The position numbers were made by a program, and so were the translations under genes. Below the pieces are notes generated by a model that saw nothing but the letters and a program-made list of their open reading frames with translations, did not search any database and had not been told where the DNA came from. DNA of 64,000 nucleotides. Source: Mesonia aquimarina (GTDB lineage: Bacteria; Bacteroidota; Bacteroidia; Flavobacteriales; Flavobacteriaceae). This document shows positions 10,889 to 63,736 of the stretch, one piece after another. Each line of letters opens with the position of its first letter. The first letter of the stretch is position 1. The stretch spans positions 1 to 64,000 of the forward strand of contig NZ_RCNV01000004.1 of the NCBI RefSeq assembly GCF_003667275.1, written 5' to 3'.

Positions 10889-11740
10889 ATGAAGAAAGAA
10901 AAGAATATTCCGGAACAACATCAATCTTCACAACCTGGTAAAGAAGAAAAAATGCATCCGCAGCCCGAGTATATAAGAGAGAATTATAAAGGCTGCGGTA
11001 AACTAAAGGATAAAGTAGCGCTCATCACCGGTGGCGATAGTGGCATAGGAAGAAGTGTGGCGGTGCATTACGCCAAAGAAGGAGCTAAGATTGCTATAGT
11101 ATATTTAGAAGAAGATGAGGATGCTCGTATTACCAAAGATTTAATTGAAAAAGCACATAGCACATGTCTATTATTAAAATTTGATATAACTGATAAAAAA
11201 AAGTGTAAACATATTATTGATGCGACAGTAGATCATTTTGGCTCACTCAATATTGTAGTGAACAATGCAGCCATGCAATTCCCGCAACAGCAAATTAAAG
11301 CTATCTCTCAAGGACAATTGGAAAAAACATTTAAAACTAATATTTTTTCTATGTTTTACATCGTTCAAGAAGCTATTCCACATTTAAAAGAGAACGATGT
11401 CATTATTAATACCGGATCTATTACGGCTTATTTAGGAAATGAAGTATTATTAGATTATTCAAGTACAAAAGGTGCGATCATCTCATTCACCAGAACATTA
11501 TCTCAAATATTAGTAGAAAAAGGAATACGTGTAAATGCAGTAGCCCCGGGACCTATTTGGACACCTCTTATTCCTTCCAGCTTTGATTCGGTAAAAGATT
11601 TTGGAAAAAATACACCGATGAAAAGGCCTGGACAACCGGCTGAATTAGGTCCAGCTTATGTTTTTTTAGGTTGTGAAGATAGTAGTTATATGACCGGACA
11701 AGTTTTACACATAAATGGGGGGGAGTTAGTAGGAAGTTAG
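10889..11740 (+). CDS. SDR-family oxidoreductase (YghA/general-stress-protein-39-like)
   Basis: A 283-residue short-chain dehydrogenase. After a 45-residue polar N-terminal extension typical of the YghA/GSP39 subgroup (HPQPEYIRENYKGCGKL), the Rossmann motif reads TGGDSGIGRSV. NNAAMQ follows, then the catalytic Ser in NTGSITAY, and Tyr and Lys in YSSTKGA. The C-terminus has the PGPIWTPL and INGGE motifs of the classical family. Members are induced by general, oxidative or osmotic stress in other bacteria; the substrate is unknown. It converges with the metallo-hydrolase at 11784 and lies between two AraC-type regulators. Confidence 0.9.
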   Translation: MKKEKNIPEQHQSSQPGKEEKMHPQPEYIRENYKGCGKLKDKVALITGGDSGIGRSVAVHYAKEGAKIAIVYLEEDEDARITKDLIEKAHSTCLLLKFDITDKKKCKHIIDATVDHFGSLNIVVNNAAMQFPQQQIKAISQGQLEKTFKTNIFSMFYIVQEAIPHLKENDVIINTGSITAYLGNEVLLDYSSTKGAIISFTRTLSQILVEKGIRVNAVAPGPIWTPLIPSSFDSVKDFGKNTPMKRPGQPAELGPAYVFLGCEDSSYMTGQVLHINGGELVGS

Positions 11741-26250: not shown

Positions 26251-26849
26251 ATGGAAAAAAGTGATTATCAAAAAAAAGAGACTTTTCAAAAACAAAAGAA
26301 CCAAGTGGAAATAAGAGCATAAAAAAAACCACTCATAAAGACCCTATTTTTGTTATTCAAAAACATGATGCCACTAACCTTCACTATGATTTTCGACTAG
26401 AAATAGCAGGTACTTTAAAGTCTTGGTCAATACCTAAAGGGCCTAGTCTTGATCCTCGTATTAAACGAATGGCGATTCCTACTGAAGATCATCCTATAGC
26501 ATATGCTAAATTCGAGGGTGTCATCCCGCAAAATCAATACGGTGGTGGCACGGTTATGATATGGGATAAAGGCACTTTTGAAAATCTAAAAAAAGACCCT
26601 TCAATCAATCTTGAAAAAGCTTATAAAAAAGGACGCTTAAAATTTTTTTTAAGTGGAAAAAAATTGCAAGGTGGCTATACACTTATTAAAATGACTAGTG
26701 GAAATATGAAAAATAACTGGCTACTTACAAAGATAAATGATAAAAATGCTGATGCAAGGCGAAAGTCTCTAAGTACCCAAAATAAAAGTGTGATAAGCGA
26801 CAGAACACTCGAAGAAATACGAGAAGATAAAAAAACCCAACTGAAGTAA
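26251..26849 (+). pseudogene. LigD 3'-phosphoesterase domain, frameshifted
   Basis: The reading from the ATG at 26251 gives the LigD start and is then lost in a run of eight A (26270-26277). One added base restores the motif RDFSKTKEPSG, which continues into the phosphoesterase domain (VIQKHDATNLHYDFRLE, WSIPKGPSLDP, EGVIPQNQYGGGTV, NNWLLTKI). These include the His, Asp and Arg residues that bind the metal and phosphate. In most Bacteroidota LigD proteins this domain is followed by an ATP-dependent ligase domain; here the frame stops after the phosphoesterase part. The A8 run could allow slippage, but the companion polymerase gene is broken too, so decay is more likely. Confidence 0.8.
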
Positions 26850-26865
26850 TAAAAGAAGAACCGCA

Positions 26866-27691
26866 ATGAAAATTAATGCAGTAAAGATTACACATCCTGA
26901 CAAGCTATGGTTTCCTAAAAATAACATTACCAAGTTAGCAGTAATTCAATATTATGAAAAAATAGCAGATCTCATGCTACCTTATCTTAAAAATCGCCCT
27001 TTAACACTACACCGTTTTCCGGATGGAATCGATTCTAAAGGTTTTTATCAAAAAAATGCAGCAGATTACTTTCCTGATTTTATTCATGTCATACAAATAA
27101 AAACCGAAAAGGCTTATAATTATCAACCAATGTGTAATAATAAAAAAAGCCTTTTATATCTTGTTAATCAAGGCACAGTAAGTTTTCATGTGTGGCTATC
27201 CCAAAAAGATAAACTTTACAAACCCAATAAAGTAGTTTTTGATTTAGACCCTCCTGAAAATCCCTTTAAAAAGGTAAAAGAAGCTACTAAAAAAACAGTT
27301 GAATTTTTCAAGAAAAAAGGAAAAAAACCTCAACTCATGACTACAGGAAAAAAAGGTTTTCATGTTTGGTATACTCAACGTAGAACAAAAACTTTTGAAG
27401 AGTTAAAACCAAATTTAAAAAACTTTGCTGTAGAATTAACTGCTCAAAACCCAAGTCTATTTTACAACCGCTGTTCGAAAAAACAAGCGGAAAGGAAAAG
27501 TTTTTATTGATTACCTACGAAATGCTTATGCCCAAACTTCGGTTTGCCCTTATTCATTAAGAGCTACTACAGAAATGGGAATTGCCACTCCTATTAAATA
27601 TAATGAATTAGACAATGTAAAAAAAGCTAGCCAATATAATTTAAATACTATTGAAAAAAAGATTCAAGGATTAGTAATAAAAAACCGTTAG
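26866..27691 (+). pseudogene. LigD polymerase/primase domain, frameshifted
   Basis: A standalone LigD-type polymerase domain starts 16 bases after the phosphoesterase frame. Motifs are clear: ITHPDKLWFPKNNITK, RPLTLHRFPDGI, GFYQKNAADYFPDF, VFDLDPP (the catalytic DxD), LMTTGKKGFHVW. The frame breaks near 27478-27485 at an A6C stretch and ends at 27510. One frame over, the family C-terminus continues (KVFIDYLRNAYAQT, CPYSLRATTEMGIATP) to about 27690, overlapping the end of the convergent SPW gene. With the upstream lesion this indicates loss of the NHEJ enzyme; no ku gene is in the window. Confidence 0.8.
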
Positions 27692-28056
27692 TTTTCTTCT
27701 TTATAGTGAATGGGATCTTTTTTCCATAGGGAACCCCATCCGCCTCCATAAGTTCCTTCGACTTTTCCTTTTACAGTGCTAAAAACAAATACAAGAACAC
27801 CTACCGTTATATTATTGATTAATCCAATTTCTGAAGAATAATCAAAAAAAAGAAAATAAGCTAAAAGCCAAATAGCTAATGGATAATTCCATTTTCTTAC
27901 TACACGAGTAGCTTCCCAATAAGCAATTACAGAAAAAGTAATAATTAAAGGTCCAACAATATAAGAATTGTTTGCTAAATCGTTATCATAATTTAATACG
28001 GCTGGCGCAATCATTAACCATAAACCTAAAATTGTATTTATAATTTGTGCCCACAT
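27688..28056 (-). CDS. SPW-repeat-type membrane protein
   Basis: A 122-residue protein with four membrane segments in two similar halves. The first half reads INTILGLWLMIAPAVLNYD, as in SPW-repeat proteins where a Ser-Pro-Trp motif marks each half (here APA). The C-terminus is soluble and Gly-rich. The family often accompanies epimerases and VKOR-like proteins; its function is unknown. It is the last gene of the minus-strand operon, two bases behind the VKOR-like gene. Confidence 0.7.
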   Translation of the reverse strand: MWAQIINTILGLWLMIAPAVLNYDNDLANNSYIVGPLIITFSVIAYWEATRVVRKWNYPLAIWLLAYFLFFDYSSEIGLINNITVGVLVFVFSTVKGKVEGTYGGGWGSLWKKDPIHYKEEN

Positions 28057-28058
28057 AA

Positions 28059-28619
28059 TTAATTTACTTTTTTAATTTCAGATTTTACTCCCCAAAAAAC
28101 CTTCCACAATGAAAGCTTCTTTTTTTTTGCCCGTTGCATATACTGTAAACTTGCTAGCATTTCATCCATTGCAGGACCAATCATTAAAATAGAAATAACT
28201 GCTGAAGCTAAACAAAAAGTACACCATGCAGAAAACAAGACAGGTTGAAAAACCACCAGCATAATACTTACGAGACCTAATGGACCTACCGCCAAACCAA
28301 AGACAATAACTACCCAAGGTTTTGTTCTCCATCTATAGGTCCCGCCAATTACCCCGGTGACAGCGTCAACCAAATAGCCAAAAGCTCCTAATACCGCGTC
28401 TGGAACCGGTAAAACATTGGATACTTTCGAATTCAAAATTTTTATACTTCCTTTACCAAAAAAAGGCTCCCAAACTTCATCAATAATATTTAATTGATAT
28501 AATGAAAGGTATACAGCGATACCAAATCCAATTATTGCTAAAATGACAATAGGGATACGTTGAGACCATTGTGCAGGATTATAACCCCAGCCTGGTGGTA
28601 TGTGATTATCTGTTTTCAT
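28059..28619 (-). CDS. VKOR-like membrane protein lacking the loop cysteines
   Basis: A 186-residue protein with four to five membrane segments and the vitamin-K-epoxide-reductase fold signature. The active CxxC is in AWCTFCLAS (C133, C136). In typical bacterial VKORs two more cysteines lie in the periplasmic loop before the second helix; here that stretch (GKGSIKILNSKVSNVL) has none, and the protein has only two Cys in total. Electron transfer from a DsbA-like partner would therefore need another route, or the protein has another role. It is translationally coupled to the epimerase (ATGA overlap) and followed by the SPW gene. Confidence 0.75.
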   Translation of the reverse strand: MKTDNHIPPGWGYNPAQWSQRIPIVILAIIGFGIAVYLSLYQLNIIDEVWEPFFGKGSIKILNSKVSNVLPVPDAVLGAFGYLVDAVTGVIGGTYRWRTKPWVVIVFGLAVGPLGLVSIMLVVFQPVLFSAWCTFCLASAVISILMIGPAMDEMLASLQYMQRAKKKKLSLWKVFWGVKSEIKKVN

Positions 28620-29689
28620 GAAAGATTATTTTTTTTGAACCATTTATTAGGATTTCCTTTCAGGTTTTTAATTATAGTAGGCAAGGTTTTCATTACAGAA
28701 TGAGAGGGCGTCCAATCTAAATATTTTTTAGCTCTACTTATATCTAATTCATAATGATCATCTGCACGATCTATCATCCATGGCTTAATAAAAGGATCGC
28801 TCACTAAATCAAGGGCCCACGCTCCTGCTTTGGCAATTTCTGAAGGAATTTGTTGTGTTTCCCATTTTTCATCAAAAAGAAGTTCTCCTATTTTATCTTG
28901 TAAATCTTGATAACTCGGTGTGGCAGGTTCTCCTATATTAATAGCCAAATCGTCAGGGAGGTCTTTTCTTCTATCAACCGTTTTTTCTATAGCTTCTAAT
29001 AAATCTTCTAAATGAATAAAAACATCTCCATGAGATGGGTTACCGGAATACAAATGACTTTTTAAATCTTTCTCATATATTCTTTTAATTTGCTGTGTAA
29101 TAGGTATGGAATGTCCATAATCATTATATACTCCGGCAATACGTAAGAAAACCGTCTTTAAACCTTCGTTATGCTCTTTAATCATTTTTTCTGTATGTAA
29201 TTTAGAATCAGGATAGCCCCAATTGGTTTCCATAGGACTATTTTCGGTAATTTTTTTTCCTGGTTTTGTTGGCTTATAAATTAGATTGGAGCTAGAATAT
29301 ATAAATTGGTCTACTTCAAAATCTTTTAGTTGATTTAACAGGTTTCTAGTACCTTTTAAATTAATTTCTTCATAAGCAGGACTATTTTTAGTATTAAAAT
29401 TATAAAAAGCGGCTAAATGAATAACAGAGGCTATTTTACTTCCATAACCATATCTAATTCTTTCCATTGCATGGTCTATGGCTTTCTCGTCTTTAATATT
29501 AAAATTTACACATTCTGCTTCTAAGGGTGGGTATGGTGGCCCTACCCGATCTAGCCCTATTACTCTATATTTAGGAGCTAATTTTTTAATCAATGAAAAA
29601 CCTATCAATCCGCTACTTCCTGTAATTATTATTACCTCTTTATCTTGGATTCGCGCTCCTTTCTCATCATGATCAATAATTTCATCCAT
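28616..29689 (-). CDS. NAD-dependent epimerase/dehydratase-family protein
   Basis: A 357-residue extended SDR. Cofactor motif ITGSSGLIGFSLIKKL, then VIHLAAFYNF, FIYSSSNLIY with the catalytic Ser, and an active-site Tyr/Lys pair in WGYPDSKLHTEK. A 15-residue polar N-terminal extension precedes the Rossmann fold. Its place in the operon between the AstE/AspA-like hydrolase and the VKOR-like gene suggests it modifies a sugar or another carbonyl compound in the same pathway. It overlaps the next gene by four bases, so their synthesis is coupled. Confidence 0.85.
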   Translation of the reverse strand: MDEIIDHDEKGARIQDKEVIIITGSSGLIGFSLIKKLAPKYRVIGLDRVGPPYPPLEAECVNFNIKDEKAIDHAMERIRYGYGSKIASVIHLAAFYNFNTKNSPAYEEINLKGTRNLLNQLKDFEVDQFIYSSSNLIYKPTKPGKKITENSPMETNWGYPDSKLHTEKMIKEHNEGLKTVFLRIAGVYNDYGHSIPITQQIKRIYEKDLKSHLYSGNPSHGDVFIHLEDLLEAIEKTVDRRKDLPDDLAINIGEPATPSYQDLQDKIGELLFDEKWETQQIPSEIAKAGAWALDLVSDPFIKPWMIDRADDHYELDISRAKKYLDWTPSHSVMKTLPTIIKNLKGNPNKWFKKNNLS

Positions 29690-29750
29690 AACTGTTTATT
29701 GTTTATTATAATTAGTACTTATTTAGTATTAAAAATTATAGTTGAATCTA

Positions 29751-30668
29751 TTAATTTTTCACCTCTTCAATAATAAAGAAACCATCATCACCTTGTTTCT
29801 GATATAATGGCATAAAAATTCGTGCATTCCACTTGCTTTTTATTTCTTTACCATTTAGAATGGCTAAAAGTTCTCCCTTTTTTATTTCTTGAAAATTTTG
29901 ATATCCTGGTTGCATTTCAAATTTATCTTCTGGTAAAATTCCTTTTCTATAAGATATTTCAAAAGTTTTTTGATTAGGTGCATTGATACTGGCAAAATTT
30001 TCCACACAAGCCGGATATATTGAAATGTCTTTTAAATTAAGTCGACAAGCCTTTTCTAAGGCTAGCCAAATCATTCCTTCATGATTTTCTATGGCATGCT
30101 TGCTAGTATGTTCTCCGGCTTCAAAAACGAAACCTGTAAAACCACTTCTACTTAGATAGTGATCTATATCTCCTGTAATAATATCACTAAAGCCTTTGAC
30201 AATATAGGTAGGGAAATTATGTGCCCATTTATTATTATCATTTACGTCTTGAACAGACATATAAGGCAAACTATCTGAAGATGTAGTATGACAATCTATA
30301 AAATATCGTTTAGTATACTCTTCTTCTGGAAATTCATCTAGTACATTGATGATCTCATACATTTCTTTTTCTTCGTGACTTTCAATCTTTTTCTTTTCTA
30401 AATTTTCTATCGTCCATGTCCGGTTAAGATCTTCATCTATATATCTTTTATTTTTATTGAGTGCTTTTTTATTTCCTGCGAGACCTAAAATTGTACCTTT
30501 AATAACAGGTTTTGTTTTATTTAATTCTTTAAAAACATTTAATAGTGCCTGTACACCACTGGGTTCATTACCATGTACTCCCGCGGTAATTAAAAGCAAA
30601 GGGCCTTTTTTTTTACTATCATACGTCCCTATAATTCTAGGAATCTGTTTATTTAGTTGTGTATTCAT
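29751..30668 (-). CDS. AstE/AspA-like zinc amidohydrolase
   Basis: A 305-residue protein of the succinylglutamate desuccinylase/aspartoacylase family. Zinc ligands and active-site residues are visible: GVHGNEPSG (HxxE), DLNRTW with the substrate-binding Asn-Arg, and the third ligand in IDCHTTSSD; FEAGEH carries the catalytic Glu. Family members remove acyl groups from N-acyl amino acids. The C-terminal domain (about 210-300) is beta-rich as in AspA-like enzymes. It lies 11 bases after the ATP-grasp gene, so it may reverse or process the amide bond made by that ligase. Confidence 0.85.
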   Translation of the reverse strand: MNTQLNKQIPRIIGTYDSKKKGPLLLITAGVHGNEPSGVQALLNVFKELNKTKPVIKGTILGLAGNKKALNKNKRYIDEDLNRTWTIENLEKKKIESHEEKEMYEIINVLDEFPEEEYTKRYFIDCHTTSSDSLPYMSVQDVNDNNKWAHNFPTYIVKGFSDIITGDIDHYLSRSGFTGFVFEAGEHTSKHAIENHEGMIWLALEKACRLNLKDISIYPACVENFASINAPNQKTFEISYRKGILPEDKFEMQPGYQNFQEIKKGELLAILNGKEIKSKWNARIFMPLYQKQGDDGFFIIEEVKN

Positions 30669-30679
30669 AATTCTCTATT

Positions 30680-31729
30680 TCATTCCATGGTTGCTAAAAC
30701 ACGATTAGAAAGTTGTTTACCATATAGTCTTTTATAGTGTAATTTTTTTTCAATCGCATCTATTACTTCATCTGTGAAATCAGGATAGCCTATCTCGTGA
30801 AAATGATCAAGCCCGCCGGGGCTTAAAACATTAATTTCAATTAATTTATCTTTTACCACATCTAAGCCGACAAAAAATAACCCGTCCTGTATTAATTTTG
30901 GAGCGGTTAATTCTATTATTTTTTTCATTTCAGGAGTTAGTTCTACAGTTTCTGCTGTAGCGCCTTGTCTAAAATTACTTCTAAATTCTCCTTTACACAT
31001 TTTTCTTCGAATCATCGCATGTTTACCATCTCTTTCTATAAGTCTCCCGTTCATTAATAAGATTCTTACATCTCCGTTTTTAATGTCTGGTAAATATTCT
31101 TGCGCTATTACATAGCCTTGCTCCGTAATAGTTTTGATAATTTGATTTACATTTTTTTCATGCTCATCTATCAAGTAAACATGTTCTCCGCCAGATCCTT
31201 CTAAAGGTTTTAAAACCATTTTTTTCTTCTGTTTTTCCCAAAACTCAAGAATATCTTCTTTTTTTCTTGTAATTATAGAAGCTGGTTTTATACATTGAGG
31301 TAGCTCTTCAAAATATAATTTGTCGATAAATGCATGAGATAAGGCATATGCATCATTTAATACTAACACCCCTGCTTGTTGCATCATTCTCCCAAATGCT
31401 ATTCCGGCTTGTTCTGCCCATTTCCTTCCCGAAGCTTCTTCTGTAGGGTTATTTCTAATAAAAAGAACGTCAACCTCATCAGCCATTATCATTTTTTTCT
31501 TTCTTTTTTTGCTCTGTAAATGCTTTAAAAATTTTTTAGACGTAGTTAGTTTAGTTGTTTTTAAAACTTGTATACAGTTTAACCCAATGGGAGAATCATA
31601 GTGAAAACTAAACCCTCCAACACTCATTACCAATACAGTGTGACCTCTTTGATGAGCTTTAGTCATAATTGCTACGGATGTACCACAAGTTTCTGTGGCT
31701 ATATCATTTAATACAAAGCATATTTTCAT
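30680..31729 (-). CDS. Glutathione-synthetase-like ATP-grasp ligase
   Basis: A 349-residue protein with the GshB-like two-part layout: an N-terminal pre-ATP-grasp domain (MKICFVLNDI to about 120) and an ATP-grasp domain. Visible motifs are MVLKPLEGSGGEHVYL (ATP-binding Lys and Gly loop), IAQEYLPDI, GDVRILLMNGRLI, and the metal-binding end FFVGLDVVKDKLIEINVLSPGG. It should form an amide bond between a carboxylate and an amine. No glutamate-cysteine ligase lies beside it, so a product other than glutathione is likely. It overlaps the QEGLA gene by four bases (31726-31729) and is followed at 11 bases by an amidohydrolase. Confidence 0.85.
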   Translation of the reverse strand: MKICFVLNDIATETCGTSVAIMTKAHQRGHTVLVMSVGGFSFHYDSPIGLNCIQVLKTTKLTTSKKFLKHLQSKKRKKKMIMADEVDVLFIRNNPTEEASGRKWAEQAGIAFGRMMQQAGVLVLNDAYALSHAFIDKLYFEELPQCIKPASIITRKKEDILEFWEKQKKKMVLKPLEGSGGEHVYLIDEHEKNVNQIIKTITEQGYVIAQEYLPDIKNGDVRILLMNGRLIERDGKHAMIRRKMCKGEFRSNFRQGATAETVELTPEMKKIIELTAPKLIQDGLFFVGLDVVKDKLIEINVLSPGGLDHFHEIGYPDFTDEVIDAIEKKLHYKRLYGKQLSNRVLATME

Positions 31730-33576
31730 GTGGCTATCATTTTAGAAAGTGGTAAACCATCTCGAATTAATTTTAATCTATTCTTAAAGTTTTCATATGA
31801 TATAAAACTTGGTTTTATAACATTCTGTTTTAATATTCTTCTTTCCGTAAGTTCTTTTATAATAGGTGTATGTTCTAACGAAAATTTACCTGCTAGAAGT
31901 GGTTCATACTCTCCCCCTTTTTCTAGGTGATTTTTAAGTTCAACCAATCCTTTCAAATAAATTATATCTTTTAAAAAACCACCACCTTGCATTATTCTAG
32001 AAGTTATATTAAAAGCTCTTTCTTTAGAAAATCCATAATCTTTACAAAGCAATCGGAAAATTTGAATGAAATCTGCTCCATCCATTAATGCACTTCCTGC
32101 GACTACTCTTCCTGCTAATGTACGCAACCGATTAGCCGTTAATCCTCCTACAAGATATTCAGCCATCACTGCTAGTCCTTCTTGAAGAGAATCGTAGCCT
32201 GCTAAACCTATACTTAATTGCTCTAAAGGTTGTTGTTTCCCATTAAAATAGGTAAGCACATGGGTTCCTACTTCATGTTGGATGAGTGCTTTTGCTTCAT
32301 TTTCGTTCATTTTATAATCTTGCGGAATGTAAAGCGCTCCTTGAGAAACCATCATAATATTAACATCCTTACGAATATGTACTTTGCATTTAAAACTAGG
32401 ATCTTGAGTAGAAAAAAAATTAAATTCATTCTCAGCTAAATATTTAAAATCCTTAGCATTAATCAGCTCTGCTGAAAACTCACTTGTGTCTTCGGACACT
32501 TCATTAAGAAGTTTTATTGCTTTATTTTTCAAGTCCTTTTCGACCCCCTTATAAAGCCGGATACTATTGTAAAAAAAATTGCGTGTTCCTCGTTCAGCTA
32601 GCATGCTAATCTGTTGATCTAACTCTTCTCTTTTTTGATGAAAAAGGAAAGACATTGTTGGGTCATCGATTTTTTCTAATCTTAGGTTATATAATTTTCT
32701 TTTTAAAACATCCGGATCTATTGGTAATAAGCGATAATGATAATTCAAAACGTTTTCATAGTTACTTTTAAAAAAAGTAGTTTTAATTTCATTAATATTT
32801 GCAGGAGAAACCAACCAAAGAAACTGATACGAACGTTCTATATTGGACAATTTCCTATCAATTTCAAAGACTTTATCTTTTAAGTTTTTTTTACCTAAAG
32901 AACTATAACTGCTTATTCCACTGGAAGTTTGTACCCGAATATATTCATAAATAGCTTTTTGCAATACTTTTATCAATGCATCTCTAAAACTTCTAAAAAA
33001 AACGGGGTATAATTTTCCTTTTTCAGTTCTAAAAACCGGGGGTATTTCTAGTCCTACTACTAATGCTCCGCATTTTTTTGCGTCTTCAACTTTAAGTAAA
33101 GGTTTATCATTTTCCTTTTGGCGATAAGGTGTATTTACTATTTCAACCTCTAAAAACTTTCCTGTATATACAGGGTTCATTTTATTTAATTCTTTTTGAA
33201 GGACTTTTAATGTAGTTGGTAATTTATCTGCAGGTCCTTTAATAAAAAAAGATTGACTTTGCGAACTTCCCGCATAAATCTCAAATACTAAATACGATTT
33301 AAACTTATTGGAAAGATGATCTGCAATGGAATATATTAATTGTTGGTATAACTTAAAATTTTCTGTTCCTACTATTAAATAAGAAGTTTGACTTTGAAGC
33401 ATTCTAGAAATACCACCATCATCTTTTTTTTGTCTGTAAATAAGTAAATAGGGTAAACCTTTTTCTATATATAATATACCTCCATCAGAGAAGTTACAGA
33501 AAACTGTATTATTTTTCTTTAAAGAAACTAATAGATCTTTAATTAATTGTTTTGATAAAACTGAAAAAGTAGGCAT
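31726..33576 (-). CDS. QEGLA-motif (DUF1704, MATCAP-like) metallopeptidase
   Basis: A 616-residue protein of the family often called flavohemoglobin expression-modulating QEGLA motif protein. The name-giving motif is at about 465-469 in SLQEGLAVMAEYLVGG, and the zinc motif HEVGTH is at about 434-439. Eukaryotic relatives (MATCAP) are tubulin tyrosine carboxypeptidases, so a C-terminal peptidase activity is plausible. The N-terminal about 300 residues are not recognised. It overlaps the ATP-grasp gene by four bases, a pairing known in other bacteria and proposed to build or trim small peptide-like metabolites. The target is unknown. Confidence 0.88.
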   Translation of the reverse strand: MPTFSVLSKQLIKDLLVSLKKNNTVFCNFSDGGILYIEKGLPYLLIYRQKKDDGGISRMLQSQTSYLIVGTENFKLYQQLIYSIADHLSNKFKSYLVFEIYAGSSQSQSFFIKGPADKLPTTLKVLQKELNKMNPVYTGKFLEVEIVNTPYRQKENDKPLLKVEDAKKCGALVVGLEIPPVFRTEKGKLYPVFFRSFRDALIKVLQKAIYEYIRVQTSSGISSYSSLGKKNLKDKVFEIDRKLSNIERSYQFLWLVSPANINEIKTTFFKSNYENVLNYHYRLLPIDPDVLKRKLYNLRLEKIDDPTMSFLFHQKREELDQQISMLAERGTRNFFYNSIRLYKGVEKDLKNKAIKLLNEVSEDTSEFSAELINAKDFKYLAENEFNFFSTQDPSFKCKVHIRKDVNIMMVSQGALYIPQDYKMNENEAKALIQHEVGTHVLTYFNGKQQPLEQLSIGLAGYDSLQEGLAVMAEYLVGGLTANRLRTLAGRVVAGSALMDGADFIQIFRLLCKDYGFSKERAFNITSRIMQGGGFLKDIIYLKGLVELKNHLEKGGEYEPLLAGKFSLEHTPIIKELTERRILKQNVIKPSFISYENFKNRLKLIRDGLPLSKMIAT

Positions 33577-33624
33577 CGAAAATTTCTTTTTTAACTATTT
33601 TTTAAACAACTGATTTTCTTATTT

Positions 33625-34275
33625 TTAAGAACTCATCTGTTTAGCTTTTTCTTCTACTTCCTGAAGATCAATAGAATAAGGAGCTTCTTTTAATGTTATA
33701 GCAAGATGAACTAAGTTTTGTAACATAATTAATAACATATTATTCGTAAATTCATGTTTGTCACCTTCTGCTTCAATATAACTTGGACCGGGTCCAGCTT
33801 TCCCTACATAATAGGAAAAAGCATTTACAGGCAATGTAAAACCATGCTCATTTAAATCAAACAAAATATTTGAAATAGCCTTCTTAGCACCATCCTCATT
33901 ACCATCGACCATTACACCAGCTACTTTATTATATGTAGGGTATTGGCTATTATCTTTTTGGTTTTCCGTCATTATTCCCTCTAATCGTTCTGCAATCTTT
34001 TTAGCTATAGAACTTCGATCACCTCTCCATATAGGAGTGGCAATAATTAAAATATCTGTTTTTTTTATGAGTTGTAATATTTTTGGCCATTCATCATCAT
34101 CCCCTTCATCTGAGGTTATACCATAAGCTATATTATAGTCGGCTATTCTAATTTTTTTAGAAGTGACACCAAGCTTATCAAAAAACTTCTGTGCTTGTCT
34201 TATAAAAGCTTCAGTATTTGAAGTTTTTGGTTTTTGCTTTAAAGTACAATTGAGAAATAAGGCATTTAGTTTCAT
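33625..34275 (-). CDS. NADPH-dependent FMN reductase/flavodoxin-family protein
   Basis: A 216-residue flavodoxin-fold protein. The phosphate-binding loop is NCTLKQKPKTSNTEAF and the second FMN contact is ATPIWRGDRSSIAKKIAERL. It lacks signal or membrane segments. Relatives reduce quinones, azo compounds or iron complexes using FMN and NAD(P)H. It is the second gene of the operon, 48 bases before the QEGLA gene and 75 after the DUF892 gene, so it is probably co-transcribed and could supply reducing power. Confidence 0.82.
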   Translation of the reverse strand: MKLNALFLNCTLKQKPKTSNTEAFIRQAQKFFDKLGVTSKKIRIADYNIAYGITSDEGDDDEWPKILQLIKKTDILIIATPIWRGDRSSIAKKIAERLEGIMTENQKDNSQYPTYNKVAGVMVDGNEDGAKKAISNILFDLNEHGFTLPVNAFSYYVGKAGPGPSYIEAEGDKHEFTNNMLLIMLQNLVHLAITLKEAPYSIDLQEVEEKAKQMSS

Positions 34276-34350
34276 AAAAAAATATTTTAATTATAAAAAT
34301 GAATTAAGTAAAATGTTAGTATCTGAATATACAAATAGTAAAGGCAGGTT

Positions 34351-34851
34351 CTAGGATTTAGCTTTGTTATTAATCCTATTTTGAGCTATTTTTTTTAAGT
34401 TTTCATCTGTTCTTTTCTCTTCTTCTAAAGTTTGTTTAAGAATTTCTGCTTGACTATCTAAACCCAATTCTTCTGCATAAGAACAAACTGCCCAATAGCC
34501 GGCAATTTCATAATGCTCAATTCGTTGAGCTTCTGCAATAAGCCCAGCATTCTTTACATTTTCTGAAGTTTGTTCTTCTAAAAAACTTTTTGTTTCCTTT
34601 ATAAGCCCTTGCATAGCTTTACAAGTTTTACCTCCTAATTGAAAATGTAAATGCTTGCTTATAATAATTAAGCGTTTTTTATGATCTTTAGTTTCTTCTA
34701 AATGATCTCTAAATGTATTTTCCAGATTTTTATCATTTGTACTTTCTGCCATAATTGGCAAAATTTTCAATAACTGATCTTCTGCGCTATACAAGTCTTT
34801 TAATTGATGTTCAAATAGGGCTCTTAGTGTTTTCATAGTTGAGGATCTCAA
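34351..34851 (-). CDS. DUF892 (YciE/YciF-like) ferritin-like protein
   Basis: A 166-residue four-helix protein. The family start LRALFEHQLKDLYSAEDQLLKILP is clear in pattern (key residues LF-Q-KDLY-AE-QL), followed by HLEETKDH, RIEHYEIAGYWAVCSYAEELG and LEEEKRTDENL. These give the Glu and His residues of a diiron ferritin-like site. YciF-type proteins are induced by stress. It is the first gene of the eight-gene minus-strand operon to 27688. A motif shared with the 18572 gene lies 59-87 bases upstream. Confidence 0.88.
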   Translation of the reverse strand: MRSSTMKTLRALFEHQLKDLYSAEDQLLKILPIMAESTNDKNLENTFRDHLEETKDHKKRLIIISKHLHFQLGGKTCKAMQGLIKETKSFLEEQTSENVKNAGLIAEAQRIEHYEIAGYWAVCSYAEELGLDSQAEILKQTLEEEKRTDENLKKIAQNRINNKAKS

Positions 34852-37951: not shown

Positions 37952-38404
37952 ATGAACCAAAACGAAACTGCAAAAAAAATTAATGATTTAATTGAAAAAA
38001 ACAATGATGCTGTAAAAGGTTTTAAAGAAGCGGCTGACAATGCTGAATCACAAGAATTAAAATCATTTTTAATAAATCAATCAAGAGAACGAGCATCGTT
38101 TGCTCAAGACCTCTCGGAAAAGCTGAACGTGAATTATCCGGATGAAAAAATTGATACCGATGGAAGCACTACCGGAAAAATCCATAGAGGATGGATCAGT
38201 TTTAAATCTGCTTTATCGGTAGATGATGATGAGGCTATTTTAGAAGAATGCATTCGCGGAGATAAAGCAGCTAAAAAAGAATATGAAGAAGCCTTGTCTA
38301 ATTTTTCTGATTTTCCTCAAAGTATAGCAAATTTGATCTCTACCCAAAAAAATAAAATAGAAAGAACTCTTAATGAGGTAAAAACCTTGGAAGATTTGCA
38401 TTAA
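37952..38404 (+). CDS. DUF2383 (PA2169-type) four-helix protein
   Basis: A 150-residue helical protein with the DUF2383 pattern: INDLIEKNNDAVKGFKEAA, SRERASFAQDL, GWISFKSALS, DDDEAILEECIRGDKAAK. These ferritin-like four-helix proteins are widespread in stress regulons and may bind metal or membranes; their function is not established. It is followed by a strong terminator at 38427. Confidence 0.82.
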   Translation: MNQNETAKKINDLIEKNNDAVKGFKEAADNAESQELKSFLINQSRERASFAQDLSEKLNVNYPDEKIDTDGSTTGKIHRGWISFKSALSVDDDEAILEECIRGDKAAKKEYEEALSNFSDFPQSIANLISTQKNKIERTLNEVKTLEDLH

Positions 38405-58698: not shown

Positions 58699-59148
58699 AT
58701 GGAACTAGAAATAGATATAATAGAATCTTTATTAAGAGGCGGTAGTGCTATTGTTTCCGGGATATGTATGGGGTTAGAACGGCAAATAAAAGGGAAAGCG
58801 GCCGGACTAAAAACAAATATTCTTGTTGCATTGGGAGCCACTACCTTTATTATTATTTCTAATTTATATGCACAGCACGAAAACACAGATCTTACTCGGG
58901 TATTAGGTCAGATAATTGTTGGAGTTGGTTTCTTGGGAGCGGGGGTTATTTTAAAACAAAAAAGTTCAGAAAAAATTTGGGGCCTTGCTACTGCGGCTAC
59001 AATTTGGTGCAGTGCTGCAGCCGGATGTTTGGCAGGTCTAGGCATTTATGATACTTTACTTGCCTTTACCCTTATGGTGGTGTTTGTAAATCTACTTTTT
59101 GGGTATTTCGGAAAAAAAGTAAATGATATTTCTAAAAATGGAGATTAA
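58699..59148 (+). CDS. MgtC/SapB-family membrane protein
   Basis: A 149-residue protein with four membrane segments and the MgtC hallmark GGSAIVSGICMGLERQIKGKAAGLKTN in pattern (key residues G-ER---K-AGL-TN), then GQIIVGVGFLGAGVIL and TAATIWCSAAAGCLAGLG. No C-terminal ACT-like domain is present, as in the short MgtC/SapB members. It is linked to growth at low magnesium and to intracellular survival in other bacteria. It is the only plus-strand gene in the cassette-like block. Confidence 0.9.
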   Translation: MELEIDIIESLLRGGSAIVSGICMGLERQIKGKAAGLKTNILVALGATTFIIISNLYAQHENTDLTRVLGQIIVGVGFLGAGVILKQKSSEKIWGLATAATIWCSAAAGCLAGLGIYDTLLAFTLMVVFVNLLFGYFGKKVNDISKNGD

Positions 59149-60371: not shown

Positions 60372-61535
60372 ATGACACAATTTAAAACAGATGATTTTAA
60401 TGATTTGGCTTCTTACAATTCAAGTCTTTGTATCTCAATATTTCTCCCCACCCATACAAAAGGAAAGGAAGTATTAGAAAAAGAAAATAAAACACACTTA
60501 AAATCCTTATGGATCGAAATAAAGAAAGATCTTGATTCGGAGAAAATTTCTAAAGAAGAATACGCTTCGATGGAAGCTAAAATTTCCGACTTATTAGAAG
60601 ATCCTCAGTTCTGGAGGCATCAAGATGCTGGATTAGCTATATTTATTACTCACGATTTTTTTAATTATTACCAAGTTCCTGTTCATTTTAAACCGGATTA
60701 TTACATTTTAAATAACTTTTATTTACTTCCGCTTATCCCGCTGTTATCTACTCAAAAAGAGTTTTATCTTTTAGACTTAAGTCTAAAGGATGTAGCTTTT
60801 TATAAAGCTTCAAAACAATATATAGAGGCAATTGAAATTGAAGATCTCACCCCTGATCGTTTAGAAGATCGTGTAGGTTTTGATTATAAAGAAAAAAGCT
60901 TACAAGCCAGAAGTTTATCTAGTGGAAATGAGGAAACGCAGTTTCATGGACACGGAGGAAGTAACAGAAATGAAAACGTAGAGATCAAACAGTTTTTTAG
61001 CGCTGTTAATGAAGGGCTGCAAACTTATATAAACTCAACACAAGAGATCCCGTTAGTGGTGGCTTGTGATAATCATTTATTTCCCATATACCAGGAAGCA
61101 AACACCTATACTTATTTATGGGAAAAACCTGCCCCGATGAGTTCTACACACAAGGAAAAAGAACTTTTAGAAAATGCATTAACAGTCATAACTCCTTATT
61201 TAAATGAAGAAGTAGAAACAGCCTTAACACAATATACCTCTTTACCTCCCAGCAATACCTCCAGTGCTATCCAAGATATTTTGCCGGCTGCACATCAAGG
61301 TAAAATAGAAACCTTTTTTATTACTAAAGGAAAAGAAATTTGGGGCAACTATGATTCCATGAAACAAAAAGTTGAAATTAGTGAACATTCAGTTGAAGAA
61401 GGAAACACTAACCACATTCCTTTATTAAATACTGCTGCCATAGAAGTTTTTAATAAAGGCGGAAAAGTTTTTTTGGTAGAAAGCTGGGATATTCAAGAGG
61501 ATAATCAACCCGCTCATGCTATTTTCAGGTATTAA
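60372..61535 (+). CDS. Bacterial archaeo-eukaryotic release-factor-like (baeRF) protein
   Basis: A 387-residue protein with the baeRF layout. The N-terminal domain shows CISIFLPTHTKGKEVLEKEN and AGLAIFITHDFFNYYQVP. The middle domain resembles eRF1 domain 2 (YLLDLSLKDVAFYKAS, then PLVVACDNHLFPIYQ). The C-terminal domain is L7Ae-like, with IETFFITKGKEIWG and LNTAAIEVFNKGGKVFLV. Such proteins are thought to act on stalled ribosomes or in stress. The catalytic GGQ motif of true release factors is not present. It lies between DUF2267 and the catalase. Confidence 0.75.
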   Translation: MTQFKTDDFNDLASYNSSLCISIFLPTHTKGKEVLEKENKTHLKSLWIEIKKDLDSEKISKEEYASMEAKISDLLEDPQFWRHQDAGLAIFITHDFFNYYQVPVHFKPDYYILNNFYLLPLIPLLSTQKEFYLLDLSLKDVAFYKASKQYIEAIEIEDLTPDRLEDRVGFDYKEKSLQARSLSSGNEETQFHGHGGSNRNENVEIKQFFSAVNEGLQTYINSTQEIPLVVACDNHLFPIYQEANTYTYLWEKPAPMSSTHKEKELLENALTVITPYLNEEVETALTQYTSLPPSNTSSAIQDILPAAHQGKIETFFITKGKEIWGNYDSMKQKVEISEHSVEEGNTNHIPLLNTAAIEVFNKGGKVFLVESWDIQEDNQPAHAIFRY

Positions 61536-61597
61536 GATTACTGAAGACATTCATTTATTTTTCAAACTAATTATTAACTTCTTTTTAAATATACATT

Positions 61598-63736
61598 ATG
61601 AGTAATTCAAATCAACCGCAGCCTTCCTCTACCAAATCTGATGATTTACAAAAAAACATCGAAGAAGGAAAAGACAAAACAATGACGACCAACCAGGGAG
61701 TTAAAGTTAACGACACTAATAACTCCTTAAAAGTTGGCGAACGTGGCGGAACGCTTTTAGAAGATTTTATTTTACGCGAGAAAATAACCCATTTTGATCA
61801 CGAACGCATTCCTGAGCGGATTGTTCACGCTCGTGGTAGTGGCGCACACGGTTATTTCGAATTGTATAAAAGTCAAGAAAAATATACCAAAGCACGAATT
61901 TTTAATGATACCAACCGCAAAACACCGGTATTTGTACGTTTTTCTACGGTGGCAGGAAATAAAGGATCTGCCGATTTAGCGAGAGATGTACGTGGATTCT
62001 CAACCAAATTTTATACAGAAGAAGGTGTATTCGATTTAGTGGGAAATAACATGCCTATTTTCTTTATTCAAGATGCGATGAAATTTCCGGATTTAATACA
62101 TGCTGTAAAACCAGAACCCGATCGTGATATTCCACAAGCTGCCTCGGCACATGATACGTTTTACGACTTTGTATCGTTAACCACGGAAACTTTACATAAT
62201 CATATTTGGGTAATGAGCGACCGTGCCATTCCTCGAAGCTATAGAATGATGGAGGGTTTTGGAATTCATACGTTCCGGTTAATTAATAAAGATGGAAAAT
62301 CTCACTTTGTTAAATTTCATTGGAAACCCTTATTAGGAGTTCATTCTGTAACTTGGGATGAAGCTGTAAAAATACACGGTGCCGATACCGATTTTCACCG
62401 ACGCGATTTATGGGATGCTATTGAAGCTGGTCATTACCCAGAATGGGAACTTGGTTTTCAAATAGTACCCGAAGAAGATGAGCATAAATTTGATTTCGAT
62501 TTATTAGATCCTACAAAATTAATTCCCGAAGAAATGGTGCCGGTGCAACGTATTGGTAAAATGACCTTAAATAGGAATCCTGATAATTTCTTTGCTGAAA
62601 CCGAACAAGTAGCTTTCCATCCGGGACATTTAGTTCCAGGTTTAGACTTTACTAACGATCCTTTATTACAAGGACGCTTATTTTCATATACCGATACGCA
62701 GTTATCACGTTTAGGTAGTCCTAATTTTCACGAAATTCCAATTAATCGTCCTGTAAATGAAGTTCACAATAATCAACGTGATGCTCATATGCGAATGACG
62801 GTAAATAAAGGGAAAACTGCATACTTCCCTAATTCTATAGGAGGTGGTTGTCCACATTTGGCAAAAATGGCAGAAGGTGGCTTTACTTCTTATGAAGAAC
62901 GTATCGATGCTAAAAAAGTTCGTGAACGAAGCGAAAGTTTCAGCGATCATTTTAGTCAACCTGCTTTATTTTACAGAAGTTTAGAAGAATGGGAAAAAAA
63001 TCATATAGTAGATGCTTATACTTTTGAGATTGGAAAATGTACCTATGATCATATTAAAAAAAGAATGTTATATGTAATTGCTGAAATAGATAAAGACTTA
63101 GCAAAAGAAGTAGGTAAAGGTTTAGGTATGGAAATTCCTAAAGAAATAGAAGAACCCGTAAATCAAGCAATTGGCGCAGATGCTGATGTTAAGAAACATC
63201 AACCCGGGAAAAAGAAAAATTACTTAGAAAAATCGGATGCTTTAAGTCAAACACATCTTAAAAGCAATAGTATTGTGAGCAGAAAAATTGCTATTCTTGT
63301 TGGTGATGGCTTCGATGGTGAAGCTACTATGAATATGAAAAAAGGCTTAGAAGAAAAAGGAGCAATGCCACAAATAATTGCAACCCATGGAGGAACAGTT
63401 AAATGTGATAAAAATAAAGACCATAAAGTTGATGCGGCTATTCTTACCACAGAAAGCGTTTTGTTTGATGCCTTTTATGTACCGGGAGGAGAAAAAAGCG
63501 TACAAGCACTTTTAGATGAACCTAAAGCAAAAAAGTTTATTAATGAAGCTTTAAAGCATTGCAAAGCGATAGCCGTAAGTAAAGAAGGTGAACAATTATT
63601 GGAGACTACCCACGGTAAGGATTTTAAAGATGATGATGCTATTTTCATCAACAAAAGCCCAGATAAATTTGCCAGAGCGATAGCTCAGCATCGAAATTGG
63701 GCACGCGAAGAAAAAGCAAAGAAAATCCCGGCCTAA
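61598..63736 (+). CDS. katE: Large-subunit catalase with DJ-1-like C-terminal domain
   Basis: A 712-residue clade-2 catalase that breaks down hydrogen peroxide with heme. The catalytic His is in RIVHARGSGAHGYF (H77) and the Asn in FDLVGNNMPIFF (N150). The heme-ligand Tyr is in RLFSYTDTQLSRLG. After the catalase core (to about 560) a flavodoxin/DJ-1-like domain follows (IAILVGDGFDGEA, DAFYVPGGEKSVQALL, HCKAIAVSKEG), as in HPII-type enzymes. The N-terminal 45 residues are polar. Probably co-expressed with the two stress genes upstream; a hairpin terminator follows. Confidence 0.95.
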   Translation: MSNSNQPQPSSTKSDDLQKNIEEGKDKTMTTNQGVKVNDTNNSLKVGERGGTLLEDFILREKITHFDHERIPERIVHARGSGAHGYFELYKSQEKYTKARIFNDTNRKTPVFVRFSTVAGNKGSADLARDVRGFSTKFYTEEGVFDLVGNNMPIFFIQDAMKFPDLIHAVKPEPDRDIPQAASAHDTFYDFVSLTTETLHNHIWVMSDRAIPRSYRMMEGFGIHTFRLINKDGKSHFVKFHWKPLLGVHSVTWDEAVKIHGADTDFHRRDLWDAIEAGHYPEWELGFQIVPEEDEHKFDFDLLDPTKLIPEEMVPVQRIGKMTLNRNPDNFFAETEQVAFHPGHLVPGLDFTNDPLLQGRLFSYTDTQLSRLGSPNFHEIPINRPVNEVHNNQRDAHMRMTVNKGKTAYFPNSIGGGCPHLAKMAEGGFTSYEERIDAKKVRERSESFSDHFSQPALFYRSLEEWEKNHIVDAYTFEIGKCTYDHIKKRMLYVIAEIDKDLAKEVGKGLGMEIPKEIEEPVNQAIGADADVKKHQPGKKKNYLEKSDALSQTHLKSNSIVSRKIAILVGDGFDGEATMNMKKGLEEKGAMPQIIATHGGTVKCDKNKDHKVDAAILTTESVLFDAFYVPGGEKSVQALLDEPKAKKFINEALKHCKAIAVSKEGEQLLETTHGKDFKDDDAIFINKSPDKFARAIAQHRNWAREEKAKKIPA

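Follow-up and report, generated by a model that had tools for sequence, protein, structure and literature searches.

The locus

We analyzed the first 64,000 nucleotides of contig NZ_RCNV01000004.1 of Mesonia aquimarina (assembly GCF_003667275.1), here called the window, in which three adjacent genes on the minus strand encode a metallopeptidase, a ligase, and a zinc hydrolase. The first gene of this triad (31726 to 33576) encodes a long MATCAP/QEGLA (DUF1704) metallopeptidase of 616 amino acids, identified by PF08014 and TIGR02421. Its residues 1 to 250 (32827 to 33576) appear by hhalign to form a degenerate domain resembling N-formylglutamate amidohydrolase (FGase), and its MATCAP catalytic domain (31762 to 32778; PF08014) carries the motifs HEVGTH (residues 434 to 439; 32260 to 32277) and QEGLA (residues 465 to 469; 32170 to 32184). 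The second gene (30680 to 31729) encodes a GshB-like ATP-grasp ligase of the PRK12458 type with 349 amino acids (NF009110, PF02955), and the third (29751 to 30668) encodes an AstE/AspA-type zinc hydrolase with 305 amino acids (PF24827).

The triad lies within a run of eight genes that a preliminary description, made from the sequence alone, had taken for one operon. The other members are genes for a DUF892 ferritin-like protein and an FMN reductase (FMN_red) upstream and for an SDR epimerase, a VKOR-family protein, and an SPW-repeat protein downstream. All eight open reading frames (ORFs) were found on the minus strand, Pfam backed every name given to them, and both ATGA overlaps (31726 to 31729 and 28616 to 28619; 4 bases each) were present. 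From the DUF892 gene down to the SPW gene, the gaps measured 75, 48, -4, 11, 61, -4, and 2 bases. The gaps of 75, 48, and 61 bases thus marked looser joints between DUF892 and FMN_red, between FMN_red and MATCAP, and between AstE and the epimerase. A promoter scan of the window was uninformative (43 found versus 47.2 expected from shuffles), and a tRNA scan of the window found none.

Conservation is limited to three of the eight genes

The conserved unit at this locus is three genes, in the order long MATCAP, GshB-like ATP-grasp ligase, and AstE/AspA hydrolase. This was established in a sample of 199 genomes of the window's family. MATCAP (PF08014) was found in 96 of them at 107 places, 27 of which encoded long proteins (at least 600 amino acids) and 80 short ones (mostly about 390 amino acids); a gene of 313 amino acids at a contig end (G048) was classed as short. 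A strong match to the GshB-type family PF02955 lay no more than 6 kb from all 27 long and from 71 of the 80 short MATCAP genes. Seen from the ligase, 100 of the 103 strongest PF02955 matches listed lay within 6 kb of a MATCAP gene. Among the matches listed for the 199 genomes, 89 genomes had both MATCAP and a strong ligase match, 7 had MATCAP only, and none had a strong GshB-type match without MATCAP. The linkage count drew on the 107 MATCAP places, on the top 103 of the PF02955 matches listed, and on 76 FGase places. It left aside RimK-type matches as well as FGase matches of the HutG-like type (E < 1e-59), FGase matches of the GCS2-linked type (about 226 to 266 amino acids), and weak fragments; by eye, none of the FGase matches set aside that shared a contig with MATCAP lay within 6 kb of it.

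All 27 long places were then classified by gene order. Nineteen of them, the window included, had the order MATCAP, GshB, AstE; three had FGase, MATCAP, GshB; and five had MATCAP followed by GshB with no recognized hydrolase neighbor. These five loci (L041 and L044 to L047) were always found, by eye, near the same guaA-like gene, and all five genomes that contain them (G012, G101, G073, G078, and G039) carry another MATCAP locus.

Gene neighborhoods were compared in 24 distinct loci, comprising loci from the family, six named Salegentibacter, Gillisia, and Psychroflexus loci (two of them identical to loci already fetched), and one locus from another family (L079). Proteins were clustered by all-against-all BLAST after the duplicate loci L057 and L063 had been dropped, and families present in at least three loci were listed; two loci shorter than the usual 20 kb, L049 (8.6 kb) and L079 (14 kb), contribute fewer neighbors. 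The three core families occurred in 24 of the 24 loci, and the next neighbor family, an SDR, in 5. All 24 trios measured (L057 and L063 counted, L079 not) were one-stranded; the two gaps had medians of 1 and 16 bases, the first being at most 60 bases in 21 trios and the second in 18. In L079, the AstE gene was adjacent and convergent, and in L050, it was split into two ORFs. In the 24 loci, the triad had no conserved partner among transporters, regulators, or additional tailoring enzymes. No small graspetide precursor gene was found either, since no family outside the triad with at least 60 amino acids occurred in more than 5 of the 24 loci; ORFs shorter than 60 amino acids were not searched.

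Because only MATCAP, GshB, and AstE travel together, the eight-gene operon is not a conserved unit. The association of a GshB-like ligase, a DUF1704 peptidase, and an AstE/AspA zinc enzyme, part of the preliminary description, is a real conserved module, whereas comparison across genomes removed the other five genes from it. In this strain, the eight genes may or may not share one transcript.

We found no paper on the triad among the matches listed in the open-licence literature. A survey by Iyer et al. in 2009 (Mol BioSyst) reportedly described operons that combine ATP-grasp amidoligases and peptidases, and neighborhoods of ATP-grasp with DUF1704 and FGase genes may be among those it lists. 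An earlier prediction of such operons is therefore possible, and we do not claim the association as unpublished. The present analysis adds the boundary at three genes, the exchange involving AstE/AspA, the degenerate FGase-like domain, and the FGase-MATCAP fusions.

The ligase and the long MATCAP protein

The product of gene 2 scored 422.5 bits against NF009110 (PRK12458, "glutathione synthetase"; cut-off, 408) and 169 bits against PF02955, and its closest solved relative was Escherichia coli GshB (1gsa; E = 1.1e-30). The motifs KPLxGxGG and E-x-N-x-x-[ST]-P were both present in 39 of 39 ligase sequences. Enzymes of the ATP-grasp type form a bond between an activated carboxylate and an amino group.

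The product of gene 1 matched PF08014 with 285 bits (cut-off, 27). Against TIGR02421, it scored 311 bits, below the equivalog cut-off of 338.65, as a divergent long form. In the alignment of long MATCAPs, which counts two duplicate loci, all 36 of 36 sequences have the motifs HExxxH and QEG. The match to human KIAA0895L reached only an E value of 0.29, so the relation in sequence to human MATCAP is marginal.

The N-terminal part of the long MATCAP was compared with FGases. When 40 N-terminal domains were aligned with 41 FGases by hhalign, the match had a probability of 97.1, an E value of 7.6e-11, and a score of 79.5, as against 20.4 for the best of 100 column shuffles, and the alignment was colinear over 212 columns. 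A smaller alignment gave an E value of 1.2e-6 and depended on the rows chosen (2.8e-6 to 0.32 in nine subset pairs). The window's own residues 1 to 250 matched no Pfam family, and a single-sequence Pfam scan of 13 N-terminal domains returned nothing consistent. While the DLNR-type motif was found in 41 of 41 FGases and DxHSYN in 38 of 41, EEDPxT and DLNR were found in none of the 40 N-terminal domains and DxHSY in 1 of 40. The N-terminal 250 residues are thus best described as a degenerate FGase-like domain that lacks the zinc-site motifs, rather than as an enzyme of the FGase family. AlphaFold predictions of the long MATCAP from seven sequences had a predicted local distance difference test score (pLDDT) of 51.6, too poor to check the fold of this domain.

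The AstE/AspA-type hydrolase and its exchange with FGase

The product of gene 3 matched PF24827 with 66.4 bits (cut-off, 25) and the solved structure 1yw6 with an E value of 2.8e-7. The motifs HGNE, DLNR, DCHTTS, and EAGEH were kept in it, and those of the AstE type (HGNE, DLNR, and DCHT) were present in 25 of 26 aligned sequences, the exception being a fragment of the split gene in L050. The motifs kept in the MATCAP, ligase, and AstE-type proteins speak for active enzymes. The scores of gene 3 lay below the NCBIfam equivalog cut-offs (PRK02259, 64 versus 180 bits; arg_catab_astE, 54 versus 305.65 bits). An AlphaFold model of the AstE-type protein had a pLDDT of 62.9 and a predicted template modeling (TM) score of 0.64. 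In a Foldseek search with this model, the top matches were 1yw6, 2bco, and 3cdx, with succinylglutamate desuccinylases among the titles, at a TM score of about 0.4 and a root mean square deviation (rmsd) near 10. With VIA-align, it matched 3cdx, of the AstE/AspA family, with a Z score of 13.0 (rmsd, 3.5; 189 residues aligned) and CphZ, a cyanophycin dipeptide hydrolase, with a Z score of 10.2 (rmsd, 4.2; 191 residues aligned). No entry titled as an FGase was recognized among the structure matches of the model.

In other lineages, an FGase is found in place of this hydrolase. On rhizobial plasmids, the trio as annotated has the order N-formylglutamate amidohydrolase, QEGLA protein, and glutathione synthetase or synthase, and pSymB of Sinorhizobium meliloti 2011 carries the FGase, QEGLA, and GshB families in the same order. 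FGase, long MATCAP, and GshB genes also followed one another in four Bacteroidota loci outside the family (L075 to L078), and in L080, FGase and ligase matches lay around the MATCAP place. Moreover, FGase and MATCAP were fused into one protein in a Bacteroidota genome of the same class, with GshB following (L074), and in Photobacterium sp. DA100, where GshB overlaps the fusion; the FGase motifs were kept in both fusions. In two loci, a rhodanese-domain gene was seen between a second GshB-like ligase gene and the FGase gene (L040, 12316 to 13137, minus strand; L081, 6770 to 7609, plus strand).

In a tree of 78 MATCAP domains, all 24 sequences of the AstE type fell on one side of a single branch (97/89), next to the long proteins of the FGase type, with the short and fused forms apart. 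L057, L063, L001, L030, and domains of less than 250 amino acids were dropped from the tree, and its label "shortsolo" is incomplete, as genomes present twice (L082 to L085) are also labeled "short." Since the AstE/AspA type formed one clade, one exchange suffices. The wider spread of FGase suggests that it came first and that the exchange went from FGase to AstE/AspA.

A proposed ligase and hydrolase cycle

Based on these results, we propose that the triad combines an ATP-dependent amino acid ligase with two opposing zinc hydrolases, which would act as writer and erasers on a peptide or protein acceptor, much like RimK/RimB and TTLL/MATCAP. We give this reading a probability of about 0.5. The GshB-like ligase would use ATP to couple an amino acid (probably an acidic one such as glutamate) to the acceptor at one of its carboxylates, and the MATCAP metallocarboxypeptidase would take residues off that C-terminal tail. 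The AstE/AspA enzyme, or FGase in other lineages, would cut the remaining acyl or isopeptidyl bond to an acidic amino acid or recycle the released piece. Because AstE/AspA and FGase occupy the same slot, the substrate bond should be one that both can cut, namely, one that links an acyl or peptidyl group to an acidic amino acid. By analogy with known systems, acidic residues would be added to and removed from one shared acceptor by the triad. In the window's lineage, the separate FGase would have been replaced once by AstE/AspA while the degenerate FGase-like domain stayed on MATCAP, where it probably serves in substrate docking or subunit contact. The preliminary description had proposed that an amide is formed and then trimmed, which is the natural reading for the triad. 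It had overlooked the FGase that can fill the third slot, the degenerate FGase-like part of the long MATCAP, and the resemblance in logic to RimK/RimB. We favor modification of a protein over a small peptide metabolite as the role of the triad, although the two are not separated.

A possible role in stress is suggested by expression data. In RNA-seq data reported in passages of PMC10308900, the GshB (A0J47_RS17020) and QEGLA (RS17025) genes of Photobacterium damselae were upregulated 38.4-fold and 27.5-fold, respectively, at 1% NaCl, and RimK was upregulated 52.2-fold. The locus tags of GshB and QEGLA follow directly on one another. If the analogy holds, this induction at low salinity points to osmotic or general stress.

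Several observations weigh against the writer-eraser reading. Five of the 27 long loci lack an AstE or FGase neighbor, and 8 of the 80 short loci have neither the ligase nor an FGase within 6 kb, so a complete trio is not required in every case. In a Vibrio sp. HDW18 fusion (L068), two FGase motifs are lost, a tyrosine replaces a motif histidine, and no ligase adjoins; the FGases of L077 and L080 lack DxHSYN. The AstE-type model matched the peptidoglycan carboxypeptidase Csd4 with a Z score of 12.7, tied with the 13.0 for 3cdx, and thus it supports the superfamily and not substrate contacts. Specificity for acidic residues is borrowed from the distant relatives AstE, AspA, FGase, RimK, and eukaryotic MATCAP and is therefore put forward by analogy. 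The gene order would fit protein modification and a small peptide metabolite alike. Finally, the response to salinity was measured in a distant gammaproteobacterium whose hydrolase is of another type, and the passages of PMC10308900 do not discuss GshB and QEGLA as a pair.

Genes annotated as "flavohemoglobin expression-modulating QEGLA protein," a label for function unknown, gain from the writer-eraser hypothesis a testable proposal with three purifiable enzymes, and the comparison tells which five neighbors to exclude.

Alternative explanations

The triad may instead be a small-molecule pathway whose ligase produces a dipeptide, tripeptide, or N-acyl peptide for MATCAP to trim and AstE or FGase to deacylate, the outcome being a soluble peptide metabolite or osmolyte and not a modified protein. 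We regard this as possible. The homology to GshB, the linked second ligases in L040 and L042, and third enzymes of a deacylase type would suit such a pathway, and induction at low salinity would fit the turnover of an osmolyte. However, a biosynthetic route of this kind is at odds with a neighborhood that has no conserved transporter, regulator, or tailoring enzyme and whose next family reaches 5 of 24 loci. In addition, one ligase with two hydrolases resembles a reversible cycle more than a build-only route.

In their named families, AstE, AspA, and FGase act as catabolic deacylases, and the AstE-type model also matches CphZ. It might therefore be supposed that the hydrolases degrade an N-acyl-acidic peptide while the ligase re-uses the pieces, as a catabolic or salvage set. 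The ATP-consuming ligase found near MATCAP in 27 of 27 long loci is unexpected for pure catabolism, and an uptake system is absent from the recurring neighbors in the 24 loci, which makes this explanation unlikely.

Synthesis of glutathione or a glutathione-like thiol, as the annotation of gene 2 implies, is very improbable. Although the ligase passes the cut-off of the PRK12458 model and has 1gsa as its closest solved structure, its score against the glutathione synthase equivalog (glut_syn, TIGR01380) was 191.5 bits, well below the cut-off of 299.05. Furthermore, no PF04262 GshA match was found in the window's genome, the single GCS2 match of the genome sits in another ATP-grasp cluster, and MATCAP and AstE are not needed for glutathione synthesis.

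Neighboring genes outside the triad

Upstream of the triad, on the same strand, lie the genes for the DUF892 ferritin-like protein (34351 to 34851; PF05974) and an NADPH-dependent FMN reductase (33625 to 34275; PF03358), both outside the core. The DUF892 ORF was called from a TTG at 34851, and an in-frame ATG at 34836 is the likelier start. With the window counted, FMN_red and DUF892 were each found in 3 of the 24 loci; of the 23 other loci, only two, L060 and L062, had them close to the triad.

Downstream, also on the minus strand, the SDR epimerase (28616 to 29689; PF01370) is followed by a VKOR-family membrane protein (28059 to 28619; PF07884) and an SPW-repeat membrane protein (27688 to 28056; PF03779). 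None of the three window proteins had a match at an E value of 1e-4 in 37 other loci searched. Close relatives of the epimerase (E ≤ 1e-60) occurred in 3 of 100 genomes, the window's included, and both other epimerase loci again carried VKOR and SPW: VKOR adjoins the epimerase, and SPW lies beside VKOR in L070 and in one ORF with it in L071. One of these modules lies about 450 kb from the triad (G080), and the genome with the other (G037) has no MATCAP match. Regrouped elsewhere and unlinked to the triad there, the epimerase, VKOR, and SPW genes form a module of their own.

These distributions do not support the fuller pathway of the preliminary description, in which the epimerase, VKOR, FMN reductase, and ferritin-like proteins supplied redox and epimerase steps. 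That all eight genes serve one pathway has the least to recommend it, even with their common strand, short gaps, and two ATGA overlaps and with a locus (L060) where, as in the window, DUF892 comes before FMN_red and both before the triad, although an ORF on the opposite strand separates the two.

Stress-type genes were seen across the window (SDR, DUF2383, MgtC, a baeRF-family protein, and a long catalase; 10889 to 11740, 37952 to 38404, 58699 to 59148, and 60372 to 63736), and inspection by eye again showed SDR and catalase-like ORFs close to the triad in L060 and in L062. This hints that the triad lies within stress islands in the window's lineage. At 26469 to 27510 on the plus strand, the phosphoesterase and polymerase domains of LigD fall in separate short ORFs with incomplete Pfam matches, and ligD therefore looks broken or misassembled. 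Relatives of both LigD ORFs were found near the triad in three Psychroflexus loci.

Comparison with known systems

Close to the triad are the rhizobial sets of FGase, QEGLA, and GshB genes. They share the ligase family (40 to 42% identity in the best four matches listed), the long MATCAP with its degenerate FGase domain, and the tight order. The difference lies in the third enzyme, which is an FGase encoded upstream in rhizobia and an AstE/AspA enzyme encoded downstream in the window. Gene 3 shares the zinc motifs HGNE, DLNR, and H with the AstE/AspA family, which includes CphZ and EutE/DoeB, but it stays below the aspartoacylase and AstE equivalog cut-offs, and its substrate is not predictable.

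According to PMC11957791 and PMC12239564, the polyglutamylation system of ribosomal S6, RimK and RimB (and RimA), pairs an ATP-grasp amino acid ligase with a peptidase that removes the added residues, as in the triad; RimB removes the glutamate added by RimK (PMC11957791). Unlike in that system, the ligase of the triad is of the GshB/PRK12458 type, the peptidase is a zinc MATCAP rather than a retropepsin, and the triad is not known to be linked to S6. Thus, the triad may work like RimK/RimB but is no member of it, its ligase and peptidase coming from other families. The window's genome has a set of its own with RimB-like, RimK, and AstE/AspA genes (L094, 4143 to 6439, contig C24), as has another genome of the genus (L092, 6905 to 9197). 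It also has an RLAN RimK-like ATP-grasp gene followed by GCS2 and an FGase-type hydrolase, with overlapping ends (L090, 5531 to 8872, contig C5). With the triad, L094, and L090, an ATP-grasp enzyme and an AstE or FGase hydrolase are combined three times in this genome. RimK-type and AstE matches stood side by side in many rows among the matches listed.

The Pseudomonas RloABC operon (retropepsin, inactive transglutaminase, and ATP-grasp) likewise joins an ATP-grasp enzyme and a peptidase with an inactive enzyme domain, as passages of PMC12239564 describe it. In the same passages, mutants that lack the Rlo proteases do not grow when osmolarity is low, and their growth returns when the operon's ATP-grasp gene, rloC, is deleted. 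RloABC differs from the triad in having a secreted aspartic protease and a membrane protein, and it has no MATCAP or AstE.

TTLs are ATP-grasp enzymes, and CCPs are M14-type peptidases. In eukaryotes, as passages of PMC10499314 describe, MATCAP (TMCP1/2) proteins strip C-terminal tyrosine and glutamate from tubulin and, with CCP1, counteract the TTL and TTLL enzymes, including the TTLL polyglutamylases, so that writers are opposed by an eraser of the MATCAP family. The bacterial MATCAP shares HExxxH and the glutamate of EG with this tubulin-trimming family; unlike in the tubulin system, no tubulin is involved, and the human MATCAP match is marginal, as noted above. The triad may bear on the origin of the eukaryotic tubulin-trimming enzymes. 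A bolder view, which we hold to be doubtful, is that bacteria carry a linked counterpart of the tubulin-tail code, in which an ATP-grasp writer is opposed by MATCAP and AstE/FGase erasers on protein C termini under osmotic or general stress, and that MATCAP arose in bacteria as an eraser for ATP-grasp ligases before its use on tubulin.

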